From: Archaeoglobi archaeon
GTDB lineage: Archaea; Halobacteriota; Archaeoglobi; Archaeoglobales; Archaeoglobaceae
Assembly (NCBI GenBank): GCA_029259415.1
Contig: JAPDIW010000017.1
Coordinates: 1-45,269, forward strand
Direction of reading: 5' to 3'
Length of the DNA stretch: 45,269 bases
Shown: in pieces, positions 16,401 to 45,269 of the stretch
Numbering within the stretch: the stretch's first letter is position 1
How the letters are laid out: every line of letters starts with the position of its first letter
Translations under genes and position numbers: made by a program
Notes under the pieces: model-generated
Seen by the model: the letters and a program-made list of their open reading frames with translations, nothing else
Databases searched by the model: none
Told to the model about the DNA's origin: nothing

Positions 16401-16551
16401 TGTTTTTAACATTTTCGCCTGCAACCCTTCCACACTTTGACAATCCCGTCCATAACTTGAACGGAGAAATAAGAGAAAAATTTAAATCCAGTCTAAGCCA
16501 TCCCAACTAAGTGACTTCAGAGTTTTCCAAAAAACGCGCTGTTGTGAGAGC

Positions 16552-17412
16552 ATGATGCTGGAAAAGTTGGAGGAAAGGAAAGAACAACTCGAAAAAGAGC
16601 TTCAAGAATTCATCAGGAAGAGAGATGAGTTGAATGCTGCAGCGAGGGAGTATGCGAACAAAAGGGATGAGCTGAACAAGAAAGTCAGAGAAATGCTGGC
16701 TGCGACGAAGGACGTGAAGAAGAAGAGGGATGAGCTGAATGCTAAGGTAAAGGAGATCAGGGCAAAGAGAAATGAGATTTTCAAGGAAGTGGATGCGCTT
16801 TATAAGGAAGTGGACAAGCTGAGAAGGAGCATCGACAAGGGAGGCAGACCACTTGGAGAGATCGAGAAGGAGATAAGGAGGCTGGAGTTCAAGCAGCAAA
16901 CTGCTGTTCTGACGATAGAGAAAGAGAGGGCTCTGGTAGAGAGAATTGCCAAGCTGAGGAAGGAGCTTGAGGAAAGGAAGGCCCAGCTTGAGAGACATGA
17001 AGAGTTCAAGAGACTGATATCGAGGATAAGAGAGCTGAAGGACCAGGCAAGAGAACTGCTGAATGAGTTGAAGGCGTATGCTGAAGAGGCAGACAAGTAC
17101 CACGAGCAGCTAACCCAAATGTTCAGCGAGATCGACGAGACGAGGAAGCTGGCCGATGAAATGCATGAGAAGTTCATAGAGAGCAAGAAGGAAGCGGACA
17201 GGTGCCACAACGAGGCGATAAGGAGGAGAAAGGACATCAAGGATCTTGAGAAGGTAATAAAGGCTTTGAAGTCAAAGCAGGTTAAGAGCAAGGAGCAGAG
17301 GGAGAAGGAAGAGCTTATAAGGAAAGCGAAGGAAATCTACGAGATGTTCAAGAGAGGAGAGAAAATTGAAACAGAAGACTTGCTCATACTGCAGAGGGCC
17401 GGGCTGATATAG
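16552..17412 (+). CDS. Archaeal coiled-coil protein (COG1340 type)
   Basis: A 286-residue, highly charged protein that is nearly all predicted coiled coil, with repeated Lys/Arg-Arg-Asp-Glu-Leu-Asn heptads in the first 80 residues and a short non-coiled C-terminus ('ETEDLLILQRAGLI'). It matches the uncharacterised archaeal coiled-coil family COG1340, sometimes mislabelled as a phosphatase. A TATA-like element (AAATTTAAAT near 16479-16488) lies upstream. The 3' end overlaps the convergent iorB gene by 29 bases. A structural or scaffolding role is a guess. Confidence 0.75.
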   Translation: MMLEKLEERKEQLEKELQEFIRKRDELNAAAREYANKRDELNKKVREMLAATKDVKKKRDELNAKVKEIRAKRNEIFKEVDALYKEVDKLRRSIDKGGRPLGEIEKEIRRLEFKQQTAVLTIEKERALVERIAKLRKELEERKAQLERHEEFKRLISRIRELKDQARELLNELKAYAEEADKYHEQLTQMFSEIDETRKLADEMHEKFIESKKEADRCHNEAIRRRKDIKDLEKVIKALKSKQVKSKEQREKEELIRKAKEIYEMFKRGEKIETEDLLILQRAGLI

Positions 17413-18019: not shown

Positions 18020-19441
18020 TTAGCTCTGTTCCATGCCCACTGCCGATAGCAACCTCTTCGTAATTGCTTCCGTTATCAGCTTTGCAAGCAAGTCTTTTTC
18101 GTTCGTTTCTCCAAAGATTCCGAGGGGTATCTGCGCTCCTGCAGCATGCGCATGGCCACCAGCGCTTCCGACATCACTAAAAGCTCTTCTGAGAACCTCA
18201 CCCATGTGAATCCTTACATCTTTGTTTCTGGCCGAGACATAGACAGTGTCCTTTATCACACCAAAAACAACCACGGTGGAGATACCTTCAAGCTTCAGCA
18301 GGAAGTCTGCTGCTTGAGGTAACGCATCCCTGTCGTTGATGAATCCGGCAAAGCTTATGAGGAAGCTGGAATAAACCTGCCTGTTTTTGATTGCAGTACC
18401 CAGAATGTCGAGCGTTTCTGTTGAGATGGATGGACTCTCAATTTTCTCAATCAGATCATGGTCAACGAATGGGTAGAGGAATGCACAGGCCAGAAAGTCT
18501 GCCGTCCTGGTGTTTCTCTTAAACTCATCAGTTTCGCTCTTTATTCCAAAGAAGAGTGCAGTCGCAAGGATTTTGCTCGGAGTTATTTTCAGCTCCTTTA
18601 TGTATTCTGTAAGAATCGTAGCAGCAGCTCCAACATCATCTCTGAGGTCAACAAAGTCTGCCACGACCTTCTCTGCAGGATGGTGGTCGATTACAATGGA
18701 GATGTCTATTTCAGGTGGTATAGAGTTGTTAACTCCGGGCCCTGAAGAATCAACAATTGCAAAGGCGTCATAGTGGCTTAAATCCACCTCATCCGCCCGA
18801 ATCATCGGTATTTCGAGCAGGTTGACCATGGCTCTGTTTTTCTGATGCAAAATTTCTCCGTAGTAAAGAATGTCCGCAATAACGTCGAACTGCTTTGCAA
18901 TCTCCCTCAGGGCGTATGCCGACGAGATTGAGTCCGGGTCGGGGTTATCATGGGTAAAAATGCCGAGCCTCTTCCCTCTCAGCGACTCCATTATATTCTT
19001 GAGCTTCTCTATCTTTTTCAGCGTCTCCATCTTCTTTATTTTATCCATGAATGCCTGTTTTACGGCATCAGCCACAAGAACTACCAGATTTGCCCCTGCC
19101 TCCTCGAATTCCTCTTTTCTTTTGGGTGAAGAGACCCTCACGATTGTGTAAACGTCCGAAACGCTTCGCAACGCTTTGACAGCTTTAAGATTCAGCTCGT
19201 CGTCAGAACTTGTAATTAGGACGGCAGAAACTCCCTCAAGGTCAAGGTTTTTGTAGAAGTTCTCGTCAGTCGGATCTGCAATTAGTGCATCAAATCCCTC
19301 GTCTTCAAGCAACTCAATCTTTTCCTTGGACTTGTCAACGGCAAGAACCTTTTTTCCCGCAGCAGTTAGCTCTCGGACAAGCCCCACACCGGCGGCTTCA
19401 CTGCCGATGACTATGTAATCGTACCTGCCGTTTTCGGTCAT
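18020..19441 (-). CDS. TrkA-N / DHH-DHHA1 phosphoesterase fusion
   Basis: The first 140 residues or so form a Rossmann TrkA-N (RCK) domain beginning 'DYIVIGSEAAGVGLV'. A DHH phosphoesterase follows, with His-Asp-Asn-Pro-Asp-Pro-Asp-Ser (about residues 163-170), an Asp-Ser-Ser-Gly motif and Ile-Asp-His-His-Pro, and a C-terminal DHHA1 domain with Gly-Gly-His-Ala-His-Ala-Ala-Gly. Such enzymes use Mn to cleave small nucleotides such as cyclic dinucleotides or nanoRNA. The fused RCK domain, which in potassium channels binds NAD or cyclic di-AMP, suggests a nucleotide-sensing role, but that is inference. It is preceded by a TATA element near 19465-19475 and palindromes. Confidence 0.85.
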   Translation of the reverse strand: MTENGRYDYIVIGSEAAGVGLVRELTAAGKKVLAVDKSKEKIELLEDEGFDALIADPTDENFYKNLDLEGVSAVLITSSDDELNLKAVKALRSVSDVYTIVRVSSPKRKEEFEEAGANLVVLVADAVKQAFMDKIKKMETLKKIEKLKNIMESLRGKRLGIFTHDNPDPDSISSAYALREIAKQFDVIADILYYGEILHQKNRAMVNLLEIPMIRADEVDLSHYDAFAIVDSSGPGVNNSIPPEIDISIVIDHHPAEKVVADFVDLRDDVGAAATILTEYIKELKITPSKILATALFFGIKSETDEFKRNTRTADFLACAFLYPFVDHDLIEKIESPSISTETLDILGTAIKNRQVYSSFLISFAGFINDRDALPQAADFLLKLEGISTVVVFGVIKDTVYVSARNKDVRIHMGEVLRRAFSDVGSAGGHAHAAGAQIPLGIFGETNEKDLLAKLITEAITKRLLSAVGMEQS

Positions 19442-19633: not shown

Positions 19634-20662
19634 TTATATTTCCTTCAAAGCCTCAATTAACCTGTCGTTCTCTTCGGGTTTCCCAACTGTAATCCTGATA
19701 TGCAGCCCTTCCAGCCCCATAACGCTTGCATCTCTGACTAAGATGCCTTTTTCAGCCAGCTTTTCTATCACACCCTCTTTATTTGCCTTTACAAGCACAA
19801 AATTGGCGTCAGATGGACAAACTACGAGCCAGTCGATTCTCCTAAGCCTCTCAATCAACCTCTCCCTCTCAGCGACTATTTTTCTCTTGACCTTCTCGTA
19901 ATAGTCCAGTGATCTCAACGCGGCAATTGCCGTCTCCACTGCCGGATGGCTGATGCTGAATGGGAGTCTTACTTTCTCAATTGCCTCTGCAATCTCCGCA
20001 CTGCAAACAGCATATCCTACCCTCATTCCGGCGAGGCCAAAGAACTTGGAGAAGCTCCTGAGCACAATGAGGTTTTCGAACTCCTCAACCATATCTATCT
20101 TGGAATCGTCGCTGAACTCAACGTACGCCTCATCAAGCACAACATAATCTGCACTTTCAGCGACCTTTTCAACGACTTCCCTGCTTAAACTGTTGCCAGT
20201 AGGGTTGTTAGGAGAGCACAGAAACACGAGCTTCGGTCTCTCCTTTGCGATGGCTTCTGCATCAACATCATACCTCTCAAAAACGGGGAAGCTGATGGAT
20301 GCGTTGCGGAGCATGGCATAGATGGAGTAGAGCGTGTAGGAAGGCATCGGAATCACGACTTTATCAAGCTCCTCAACTATAATGTTGCAAATGCATGAGA
20401 TTATTTCAGATGCTCCGCAACCTACTGCTATGTTCTCAACCTCAAAGCCTATATATTCTGCAATCGCCTTTTTCAGCCGGAAGTAATCTGCTTTTGGGTA
20501 TCTCGAAATCTTGTTTACAGCTCTCAAATACGCCTCTTTAACCTCCTCACTCGGTTCATACGGATTCTCATTCGAGGCGAGGTTTACAATCTCTTTGTCA
20601 GGAAAGTCTTCGGGAAAAAGGCCGGCATCGTATGGGTTGATTAATCTGATAACGTTTCTCAT
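19634..20662 (-). CDS. hisC: Histidinol-phosphate aminotransferase-like enzyme (copy 1)
   Basis: A fold-type I PLP aminotransferase of 342 residues. Family marks are Ser-Asn-Glu-Asn-Pro-Tyr near residue 30, Pro-Asn-Asn-Pro-Thr-Gly, the Asp-Glu-Ala-Tyr motif, and the PLP-lysine in '[16 protein letters not shown]'. It is the last gene of an operon with an F420-type oxidoreductase, an RHH protein and an actin-like gene, overlapping the oxidoreductase gene by four bases (ATGA). A second HisC lies at 35181-36233, so one of the two may have another substrate, for example aromatic amino acids or threonine phosphate as in CobD. Confidence 0.78.
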
Positions 20663-21555
20663 ACAACCACTTCTTTTAATCTTTTGACGGATTCAATATC
20701 ACGGAAAAAGGGGTCTGCAAGCACCACATGGTCGCAAAGTTGAAGCAAGGACTTTATTCTCGCCTTTACATCTTCAGCACTCCCGCCTATGGTGAAGTTG
20801 CTGAGAAGGAAGTCCCTATACTTGAAAAGAGCTTCAGCTCCCTCCTGCTCTGCAATGCTCCCCCCTTCCCATCTTGTTCTAACGAGGGACATGATATCCA
20901 CTTTCGATAGCTCATTCGCAATATTCTCAAACCGGAACTCTTCTATGAGCCTCCTGCTCCCAGTAAAGACTATTGCCGCTGCCAATAACAGGTCTTCTTC
21001 ATTGTCGCTCGGCAAAATCAAAGCAGGTCCGTAGGCTGCTTTGAATGAGGTATCAGCATAGCTGAGGAGCCAAGATATGAATTCCTCTTTCACCGAATTA
21101 AACAGAACTCCATCTGTCTCTTTAGAGAGAGCGGTGGTCATGGGAGAGCCTGCACCGACAACGACCGGGAAATCAAATTCGTTCAAGAAATTCAGGCACT
21201 TTTTTAGCTTTCTGTAACCGTCTTTCGGGTCTGCGTAGCTACCCGCCCCCACTCCGACAATGAATCTGTCACCGTATCTTTCTCTTAGCCTTTCAACGCC
21301 CGAAATTATCCTCTCACAACCTTTCTGTGCTGAAAGAACCCCGAATCCGACTTTCAGATTACTGCATAAGCTGACAACCTCAGCCACCTTGAATGGGTCT
21401 TCGAACCCCTCAAATTCCCCGATCCATATTATTTCGACCCCAGCTTTCTCGGCAATTCTGACTCTTTCCTCTATCTCTTTTTCGCTCAAATCGCCGTTTA
21501 TGTTCAGACCAACCTTACCAATCGAGAAGTTTTTTGACCTTGGGTAGCTTTTCAT
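20659..21555 (-). CDS. Luciferase-like / F420-dependent oxidoreductase (Mer paralogue)
   Basis: A 298-residue TIM-barrel protein of the bacterial luciferase family, which in archaea includes methylene-H4MPT reductase (Mer). Seen are an N-terminal 'VGLNING' strand, '[17 protein letters not shown]' in the middle and a C-terminal '[13 protein letters not shown]' helix typical of the family. True Mer is about 330 residues, and this is shorter and more divergent, so it is probably a paralogue with an unknown substrate. The ATG lies 41 bases inside the upstream RHH gene in another frame; no better start exists downstream. Confidence 0.68.
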
Positions 21556-22042
21556 CCTTTTTCTCTTCCTCAGACACTATGCTTTCAGACTTTGTTTTCG
21601 GTCTGTATCCAAGCCTGTCTCCGTAAAGCTCAACTACGAACTTCGCTGCAATCTTTGCGAGGTCGTACATCTTCGCCTCCGTGAGCTCCCTGAACTCAGT
21701 TCTGCGCTTGTCCTTTCTCTTGTCCACGTAGTATAGGCAGAAAAGACACCTGTAAGGAGATATGGGTGTGGGTTCCTTATCCGAGAACACGTCTTCGAAA
21801 GTCTCAACAGCACAGTAAGCCCCATCGCTGAACTTACAGTACCTCACTCTCTCATCTGCTATCTCCTTAGCCACTCTCAAGAACTCGTTCAGCTCGCCTG
21901 TAACCTCTGCCTTCTTCCCCCTCTTGAAAAAGTACCACTCAAGAAGAAGGTAGACGAACTCGGACGGAGTTACGCCAGACTCCTCGCACTTTTTCATCAG
22001 CAGTTTTTCCATATCTGGCGGAATCTCCACCGTTATCTTCAT
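21515..22042 (-). CDS. Ribbon-helix-helix protein with a four-cysteine cluster, partner of the actin-like gene
   Basis: Residues 1-45 form a ribbon-helix-helix DNA-binding domain: a beta strand 'KITVEIPPD', then two helices with '[16 protein letters not shown]'. Beyond it lie Cys69, Cys77, Cys99 and Cys102, spaced to bind a metal ion or an iron-sulfur cluster, then a charged C-terminal region. The start overlaps the actin-like gene's stop (ATGA), so the two are translationally coupled. In plasmid ParMRC systems an actin-like ATPase is likewise followed by an RHH protein (ParR) that binds the centromere. The Cys cluster is not a feature of classic ParR. Metal binding is inferred. Confidence 0.65.
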
Positions 22043-23046
22043 TTCTTGCTCTTCCTCCCTTTCTTGGTTTCTTCAGCGTCGAGAATTTCGACTTCACCCT
22101 CAGCCTCCGCCTTTCCTCCTTTCTCCTCCTCAACAAGTGACTTGGCGAGGATGTAGTATCCGATGGAGTTCGCCTTTATCGGCTCATCAGGTCTTTTGAC
22201 ATCTCCTATATCGCTGAAGCTCTCCTTGAACATCTCGTAAACTCCGGGAAGCATGCTTCCTCCACCCGTGATTGCGAAGTTCTCCACCAGCGTCGTCGAT
22301 AAACCTTCAAGAACAAGCTTAACCCTGCTCGCTATCCTCTCCACCCAAGTTTTTACGTAGCCTTCATACTCCGGCATTATTTCCTCCCTGCTAACGCTTA
22401 CCTTCTTTCCTCCCCTTATCCTGCCAATTTCGTATCCCTCTGTAGTAAGGAGCTTAGTCATCTCTTCAGGAGTTATGCTGATGCCAATCCTGTTTCTGAC
22501 GGCAACTTCAAGGTTCTCGTAAAGCTTGTCAACGCCCATCAGCATTGTGTCTCCTTTGAGGTACTCCATGTCTGCAATTACGAGCACGTCAGTCGTTCCA
22601 AAGCCTATATCGACACACACTCCAGTCTCCATCCCCATGTAAGCCATAGTCCCGACAGGCTCAGGGAATATCAGAACCTTCGAATTTAAAGCGGATTCTA
22701 GCTCTTTTTTCAGCTCTTCTCTCTCCTTTCGAGACGATTTAACAGGAAGCCCTGTTGCTATAATCCCGTTCTTCACTTTGAGCTTGCTCAGACCGTATTT
22801 TGCCAGTTCGAGGTAAGAAGTGTGCAGCACTCTACCCTCATGAAGGGGTCTGAGAACCTCAACGTTTTCCATTGACTGGACTATTGAAAGAGCTTCATCG
22901 CCAATATATACGCTCTTAGTCTCCCCCTTCAGACTCCAGTCCTTTTCTTCACCATAAGCCACGATGGAAGGATAAAGAAGAACATTTTTTCCATCCGCAG
23001 TTATCTTGGTGTAATTCGTGCCAATGTCAAGACCAACCGGTTGCAT
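22039..23046 (-). CDS. Actin-like ATPase (ParM/Ta0583-like)
   Basis: A 335-residue member of the actin/Hsp70 ATPase fold. Phosphate-1 is 'VGLDIGTNYTKI' (residues 4-15), the connect region is around 'FPEPVGTMAY' (127-136), phosphate-2 is 'VCVDIGFGTTDVLV' (143-156) and the adenosine motif is 'AITGGGSMLPG' (258-268). A lysine/glutamate-rich tail (305-335) may bind DNA or a partner. It resembles ParM and the archaeal Ta0583 group more than crenactin or MreB, and is probably a filament-forming ATPase. ATG 23046 is chosen over ATG 23121 because homology begins right after it and a TATA-like element (centre about 23069) lies 23 bases upstream, giving a leaderless message. Its neighbours suggest DNA segregation or DNA-linked scaffolding; this is inference. 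Confidence 0.78.
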   Translation of the reverse strand: MQPVGLDIGTNYTKITADGKNVLLYPSIVAYGEEKDWSLKGETKSVYIGDEALSIVQSMENVEVLRPLHEGRVLHTSYLELAKYGLSKLKVKNGIIATGLPVKSSRKEREELKKELESALNSKVLIFPEPVGTMAYMGMETGVCVDIGFGTTDVLVIADMEYLKGDTMLMGVDKLYENLEVAVRNRIGISITPEEMTKLLTTEGYEIGRIRGGKKVSVSREEIMPEYEGYVKTWVERIASRVKLVLEGLSTTLVENFAITGGGSMLPGVYEMFKESFSDIGDVKRPDEPIKANSIGYYILAKSLVEEEKGGKAEAEGEVEILDAEETKKGRKSKK

Positions 23047-23119
23047 GTTTTCAGTAGATTTACCAATATAAAAAATTTCTTCGGGATAGGTTTTTAAAGG
23101 TGTGGAACGATAAAAAACC
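23047..23119. promoter_or_regulatory. Divergent promoters between the actin-like and RHH genes
   Basis: On the minus strand TTTTTTATATT (about 23063-23074) is spaced for a leaderless start at 23046. On the plus strand TTTTTAAA (about 23091-23099) is spaced for a leaderless start at 23120. The two promoters sit back to back in 73 bases, so a regulator binding here could control both. No repeated centromere-like sites are visible within this gap. Confidence 0.5.
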
Positions 23120-23695
23120 ATGGTAAAAATCAGGCTTCACACGACAGTGTCATCTGATACAGTGAGGAAAATCGAGGATTTGAAGAAAAAATACAGGACA
23201 ACAAGCAGCGTAGTTGAAAAGGCAGTTGATTTGCTTTATGCTTCTGACAACCTTAGCAGTTTAAGAGAAGATGACATACTAATCCTCGCATTTGTCAAAG
23301 AGCTGAACTTCATGCTGTGTGCGAAGGACCACTACACCGCCCTCGCTGAGTGTGATGCTGAGAGGGCTGTGAAAGAAAGTATGATTGAGATGGCCGTCAA
23401 GTACCTCTCGAAGAAGCCGATAAGCGACCTCGATTTTGAAGATTTGCTTAAAACTGTTGGAAAGCTCTGGAACCTGTTGAACAGGGCTGAGCATGCTGAG
23501 GTGCAGAGGGACGGGGAGAAGATAAACTTCGTCTTCTATCACGACATGAGAAGCGAAGCCGTCTCGAAACTCCACCTTAACCTGTTAAGGTATCTCTACG
23601 AAAAGTACTACAGCAAAAAGTATGAAATGAAGGTCGATACCATAACCGTAAACGGCTTCTCAGTACTCTTCCTCCCAAAGAAGTCCGTTAATTGA
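23120..23695 (+). CDS. Ribbon-helix-helix regulator, divergent from the actin-like operon
   Basis: Residues 1-42 form an RHH/Arc-like domain ('KIRLHTTVSSDTVRKIEDL', then a Ser-rich turn and helix). About 145 residues of unfamiliar C-terminal domain follow, ending in a beta-rich segment ('VDTITVNGFSVLFLP'). I do not recognise the C-terminal domain; it could sense a ligand. The divergent arrangement with the actin-like operon suggests that it represses or activates that operon and itself. The 3' end overlaps the convergent alcohol dehydrogenase gene by 36 bases. Confidence 0.65.
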   Translation: MVKIRLHTTVSSDTVRKIEDLKKKYRTTSSVVEKAVDLLYASDNLSSLREDDILILAFVKELNFMLCAKDHYTALAECDAERAVKESMIEMAVKYLSKKPISDLDFEDLLKTVGKLWNLLNRAEHAEVQRDGEKINFVFYHDMRSEAVSKLHLNLLRYLYEKYYSKKYEMKVDTITVNGFSVLFLPKKSVN

Positions 23696-41150: not shown

Positions 41151-42642
<1,492 letters not shown>

Positions 42643-42656
42643 AAAGGTGCGTTCAG

Positions 42657-42690
42657 CCTCGCCTGCCGGGCTCATATGCTGGCAAGCCCA
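42657..42690 (+). other. 3' strand of the 16S bulge-helix-bulge processing stem
   Basis: It pairs with 41089-41122 as described there. Its three-base bulge is ATA (42674-42676). The stem ends two bases before the tRNA-Ala, so cleavage here separates 16S from the tRNA. Confidence 0.9.
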
Positions 42691-42691
42691 T

Positions 42692-42763
42692 GGGCTCGTA
42701 GCTCAGCGGGAGAGCGCCGCCTTCGCGAGGCGGAGGCCGCGGGTTCAAATCCCGCCGAGTCCA
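42692..42763 (+). tRNA. tRNA-Ala (anticodon CGC) in the rRNA spacer
   Basis: A complete cloverleaf: acceptor GGGCTCG/CGAGTCC with one G-U pair, D stem GCTC/GAGC, anticodon stem CCGCC/GGCGG with loop TTCGCGA giving anticodon CGC, and T arm GCGGG-TTCAAAT-CCCGC. The discriminator is A; CCA is not encoded and there is no intron. A tRNA-Ala at this place is standard for euryarchaeal rRNA operons, though the anticodon is more often TGC. Confidence 0.95.
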
Positions 42764-42871
42764 TTATTACGTGCACCCGGCGATGAAAGTCGTCGGGGAA
42801 GGGTTGATGGGCAAACTTGCCCAGGTGAAGCCGTGCAGAGGTTCGTCCCCAAATGCAATCTGGGACCGGCT
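42764..42871 (+). other. Spacer between tRNA-Ala and 23S, 5' part of the 23S processing stem
   Basis: About 108 bases with local hairpins (CCCGGCGA/TCGTCGGG near 42777-42796 and GGGCAA/TTGCCC near 42809-42822). By analogy with 16S, part of this should pair with sequence beyond 23S to form a second bulge-helix-bulge stem, but the 3' strand is outside the window. No gene is visible here. Confidence 0.6.

Positions 42872-45269
<2,398 letters not shown>

Follow-up and report, generated by a model that had tools for sequence, protein, structure and literature searches.

What does an actin-like gene do on an archaeal chromosome when it is followed directly by a gene for a ribbon-helix-helix (RHH) protein? 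Chromosome movement in archaea other than the Sulfolobales is largely an open question, and such a gene pair lies within the window analysed here, 45,269 nucleotides of an Archaeoglobaceae archaeon (contig JAPDIW010000017.1). The initial annotation had described a ParM/ParR-like locus of three genes, encoding an actin-like ATPase (hereafter ACT), an RHH protein with four cysteines (RHC) and a second, divergently transcribed RHH protein; all three reading frames are present where it had placed them.

ACT (335 residues; 22039..23046, minus strand) belongs to the actin superfamily of ATPases according to its Pfam matches, an AlphaFold2 model and a 20-member alignment. Its reading frame can be extended to 23121; we assigned the start to the ATG at 23046 because the conserved N-terminus of all orthologs begins there and a TATA-like element lies upstream. 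Three Pfam models matched above their cut-offs, namely MreB_Mbl (63 bits, 2.4e-17), ALP_N (41.1 bits, 2.7e-10) and MreB-like_C (32.4 bits, 1.6e-7). The phosphate and adenosine motifs, which had been read as intact, proved to have cores that are invariant in 20 orthologs: the phosphate-1 motif DIGTNYTK (23005..23028, minus; D7, I8, G9, T10, N11, T13 and K14), the phosphate-2 motif DIGFGTTD (22588..22611, minus) and the adenosine motif GGGSMLPG (22243..22266, minus; TGGGSMLPG with the preceding threonine, with G261-G263 and L266-P267 invariant). The model (pLDDT 84.8) matched the actin fold, with MreB as the nearest PDB entry (TM 0.73, 21-23% identity) followed by actins and MamK; ParM was absent from its best 50 structure matches. 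Residues 312-335 (22042..22113, minus; pLDDT below 50) are predicted to form a disordered tail, in which an acidic linker leads to a Lys/Arg-rich end, KKGRKSKK, and nearly all ACT orthologs keep this Lys-rich end.

RHC (175 residues; 21515..22042, minus) begins with an ATG that overlaps the ACT stop codon by four nucleotides (ATGA), and the overlap, noticed already in the initial annotation, recurs at the same -4 spacing in 19 genomes. Its residues 1-46 (21905..22042, minus) were identified as an RHH domain by hhalign against the genome's own RHH_1 proteins (94.6% over 39 columns, with 0 of 27 control segments above 30%); the Pfam signal for this domain is weak, with RHH_1 matching in 3 of 22 members and RHH_5 in 4 of 22. 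The domain is followed by the cluster C69-x7-C77-x21-C99-x2-C102 (21737..21838, minus), whose spacing is exactly as first described, whose four cysteines are invariant in the aligned orthologs and which we found in every complete RHC detected. This invariance is firm; metal or redox gating through the cysteines is a guess and only possible. A monomer model of RHC was poor (pLDDT 63) and matched no known fold, so that, as far as such a model can tell, the cysteine segment is without a known counterpart. Sub-threshold Pfam matches to Radical_SAM were noise driven by the cysteines and we dropped that identity, as we did a distant RHC-like match (G159) that proved to be an RHH protein without the cysteine cluster.

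The C-terminal part of RHC runs from an ordered helix through a variable linker of 11-38 residues to an amphipathic motif, [VI]xK[LI][LIV]x(1-2)W, with which the protein ends; in the window it reads VKKLLDW (21518..21538, minus), and its conservation in ACT-bearing genomes leads us to propose it as an ACT-binding helix. All 37 ACT-bearing genomes with a complete RHC end keep the motif, and both ACT-less genomes with a full RHC deviate from it (KKALDW in G013, KLLDL in G016); the association with ACT has a Fisher p of 0.0013, a value that reflects two events only, spotted after the fact. The C-terminal helices of ParR and arcadin-2 sit in a hydrophobic groove of their actin partners, and a tryptophan matters in that of arcadin-2 (PMC5173319). 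New here is the conserved amphipathic motif of RHC behind a variable linker, a layout also found in ParR and arcadin-2, where it serves to bind their actins; this motif is the best evidence available at the sequence level for a putative physical contact between ACT and RHC.

The two genes are also inherited together. We surveyed 394 genomes sampled evenly from the phylum, 55 of them Archaeoglobaceae and 339 others; full-length ACT and RHC were confined to the Archaeoglobaceae (0 of the 339 others), and in a named genome collection RHC occurred only in Archaeoglobus, Geoglobus, Ferroglobus and other Archaeoglobales records. Among the 55 family genomes, 38 have both genes, three RHC only (one through a contig break), two ACT only (both incomplete assemblies) and 12 neither; the corresponding numbers for the 40 near-complete genomes are 29, three, zero and eight. 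With related genomes treated as independent, the co-occurrence has a Fisher p of 8e-8 for all family genomes and 2e-6 for the near-complete ones. Losses are joint, one genus being without both genes in five of five genomes and another in six of ten. Of the 38 genomes that have both, 32 carry the genes side by side and six carry them on separate contigs. The description of a chromosome-borne actin-like/RHH pair stands: the pair keeps its gene order, is operon-like and is lost as a unit. No MreB-type actin was found in the ACT-less family genomes, which argues against substitution by another actin there and indicates that the ACT-RHC system is dispensable within the family. A link to motility was dropped, as a genus without the pair still has archaellins. 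RHC may have a second role, since two genomes (G013 and G016) retain it without ACT. We found no mention of the pair in the open-access literature.

The unit does not extend to the third gene of the initial annotation. The divergent gene (23120..23695, plus) does encode an RHH protein, its N-terminus aligning with same-genome RHH_1 proteins at 93.5% against 30% or less for controls, but its family is a multi-copy one, and it adjoins ACT only within the window's genus, lying 2.2 kb off in G003; we therefore judged it to be outside the unit and dropped the three-gene arrangement. This Archaeoglobaceae family has a conserved C-terminal domain, gives no Pfam match and reaches six copies per genome. 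On the other side, directly after RHC, lies c2 (20659..21555, upper end approximate; minus), which encodes a divergent MER-like protein of the LLM fold and is a same-strand neighbour in many genomes. Synteny had hinted at c2 as an obligate third partner, a candidate we rejected because it is found without ACT and RHC and is missing from several genomes that have both. The c2 protein evolves fast: outside its closest relative the identity is 28-58%, against about 60% or more for ACT. It carries an invariant DPxFR end and may have lost F420 chemistry.

By sequence and by analogy, then, we favour the reading that ACT and RHC are a chromosome-encoded actin-adaptor pair working like ParM-ParR, to which we assign a probability of roughly one half. 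ACT would polymerise with ATP and RHC would dimerise through its RHH domain, while the four-cysteine segment would bind a structural metal, probably zinc. RHC would dock its C-terminal helix in a hydrophobic groove of ACT, as ParR and arcadin-2 do with theirs in their partners, and would thereby link ACT filaments to DNA, possibly the chromosome, at sites that would be something other than a parC array beside the genes. We also count in favour of this reading that the cell-cycle features of A. fulgidus are Sulfolobus-like and unlike those of polyploid euryarchaea (PMC5120986).

A comparison of 21 upstream regions yielded a single common element, the archaeal TATA-box-like element of the ACT-RHC unit (GAAATTTTTTATAT; 23066-23079, minus), and no shared operator or palindrome. 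The absence of parC-like repeats claimed earlier was borne out: parC-type iterons are absent from 22950-23250 according to a repeat finder that does detect pSK41 parC, our positive control, and three related loci gave scattered two-copy repeats only. Any RHC sites must therefore be elsewhere. Positions 2, 4 and 6 of an RHH ribbon face the bases, and we applied this numbering to RHC by alignment. Position 2 is always Lys or Arg and position 4 mostly Thr or Ser, as in DNA-binding RHH proteins; position 6 is Asp or Glu in 51 of 51 rows of two overlapping alignments, where same-genome RHH_1 proteins have Ser, Thr or Arg. DNA binding or tethering by RHC is thus plausible from its residues but not secure. 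This invariant acidic residue at a DNA-facing position, together with the lack of an operator or centromere-like site at the ACT-RHC loci, is what would be expected if RHC were an actin regulator instead of a DNA adaptor, its C-terminal helix capping or depolymerising ACT filaments and its RHH domain serving for dimerisation only. There are precedents, as arcadin-2 acts in this way on crenactin (PMC5173319) and a chromosomal ParR promoted the depolymerisation of filaments that had matured (PMC12270681). RHH domains, however, nearly always bind DNA, and the first two of the three ribbon positions of RHC conform to that use; we regard an RHC that only regulates actin as an unlikely alternative.

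Less probable again is that RHC acts chiefly in transcription, as an autoregulator or a regulator of wider reach, and shares no more than an operon with an independent cytoskeletal ACT. RHH_1 proteins are typically transcription regulators, the two genomes that retain RHC without ACT would fit such a role, and RHC, when apart from ACT, is often still beside c2. Yet the regions upstream of ACT share nothing beyond the TATA box, not one of the 40 near-complete genomes has ACT without RHC, and the C-terminal motif is unexpected in a simple repressor.

The most ambitious form of the adaptor reading makes the pair a dedicated actin-driven machine for chromosome segregation or tethering in the Archaeoglobaceae, with a metal- or redox-sensitive RHH-Cys4 adaptor joining chromosomal sites to an archaeal actin that is neither salactin nor crenactin; we hold this to be doubtful, below both of the preceding alternatives in probability. 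Very improbable is a reading of ACT as an ASKHA ATPase that forms no filaments, for example a chaperone or a reactivase, and not as a cytomotive actin: sequence cannot show polymerisation and ACT has weak matches to the EutJ and GlmL models, but these lie far under cut-off, and the top sequence and fold matches are MreB, MamK, ALP_N and actins.

How close, then, is the ACT-RHC adaptor pair to ParMRC, the type to which it had been assigned? Both ParMRC, the type II plasmid partition system (R1, pSK41), and the bacterial cParMR systems have a gene for an actin-like ATPase followed by one for an RHH adaptor with a linker, and bacterial chromosomal ParMR pairs polymerise (PMC12270681). Like ACT, pSK41 ParM matches both ALP_N and MreB-like_C above the gathering cut-offs (70 and 35.9 bits); a Mycoplasmatota ParM/StbA protein has exactly this pair of domains, one MreB that we tested was without ALP_N and one salactin without either. 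A motif of the type [EQ]P[VM]GT[LM] is common to ACT, pSK41 ParM and the Mycoplasmatota ParM/StbA protein. Unlike ParMRC, the ACT-RHC pair is chromosomal, archaeal and family-wide, its locus is free of parC iterons, RHC carries the four-cysteine segment, and the best structural match of ACT is MreB rather than ParM, of which a closed beta-barrel subdomain is typical. What survives of the original assignment is the actin-like/RHH pair with its ParR-like layout; against it stand the missing iterons and operator, the acidic ribbon residue and the fold nearer to MreB. Since parC, when looked for, was absent, we file the pair as working like ParMR and not as a member of ParMRC. A tree placing ParM inside ACT was not used to argue membership; we treated this placement as long-branch attraction, the ParM branches being too long to place.

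Among archaeal actins, salactin resembles ACT in being chromosomal. PMC10746226 describes it as an actin of Haloarchaea and other Methanotecta with a proposed role in DNA partition at low ploidy, and reports homologs in Archaeoglobi. We nevertheless rejected the identification of ACT as the Archaeoglobi salactin: ACT scores below the salactin cut-offs (12.6 against 27.1 bits for PF25229, 15.5 against 400 bits for NF053533), true salactin orthologs (E about 1e-95; L241-L245) coexist with ACT as a separate gene in Ferroglobus- and Geoglobus-type genomes, and a tree with ACT and salactin as one group was rejected (p-AU 0.004). No salactin ortholog was found in the window's genus. The two differ further in that no RHH partner comparable to RHC is reported for salactin in the accessible portion of PMC10746226. 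Three related genomes carry a third MreB-like gene (G012, as L246; G184; G226).

Crenactin and arcadin-2 offer another likeness, an archaeal actin whose partner has a C-terminal amphipathic, Trp-containing helix, but crenactin is of another actin lineage, and what is available of PMC5173319 does not describe arcadin-2 as having an RHH fold. MreB and MamK give ACT its strongest single Pfam match and its nearest folds, yet identity is only about 20-23% and ACT falls far below the NCBIfam MreB cut-offs (57 against 293 bits, 43.5 against 365.75 bits). Ta0583 of Thermoplasma and the pSK41-type Alps have the same ALP_N/MreB-like_C architecture as ACT; the direct sequence match between ACT and Ta0583 is weak and of low identity, and we know of no RHH-Cys partner of Ta0583. 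The structure of pSK41 ParM has been reported as closest to Ta0583 (PMC4911067). Judging by its domain matches and predicted fold, ACT is a clade of its own among actin-like proteins, between MreB and the pSK41/Ta0583-type Alps.

Salactin is the only archaeal actin that we found with a proposed role in DNA partition; on the adaptor reading ACT would be the second, and tied to an RHH partner of its own. The predicted actin-binding tail of this partner makes the pair open to direct biochemistry, the objects being two proteins, one peptide and one cysteine cluster. The pair would also bear on the recent finding of ParM-type systems on bacterial chromosomes, where their roles are unknown.

The surroundings agree with the earlier statement that no plasmid or integrase genes lie nearby: the scanned reading frames are metabolic or housekeeping, accompanied by an rRNA operon and two tRNAs. 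A search for a plasmid or phage origin of the pair gave no close match, and we dropped such a source for want of a near relative of that kind. Nor is ACT-RHC clearly close to the replication origin, which we count against the adaptor reading: the distance averages 0.17 of the circle, with a p of 0.06 that rises to 0.19 when each genus contributes a single value. Elsewhere in the window, 18020-19441 (minus) encodes a TrkA_N, DHH and DHHA1 fusion, that is, a nucleotide-binding plus phosphoesterase protein, and a DUF7121 protein (16552-17412, plus) faces a long antisense reading frame (16507-17103, minus) that is likely a mere shadow ORF. The rRNA operon occupies 41151-45269 (plus), with tRNA-Ala in the spacer between the SSU and LSU genes, and the contig end falls inside the LSU gene.
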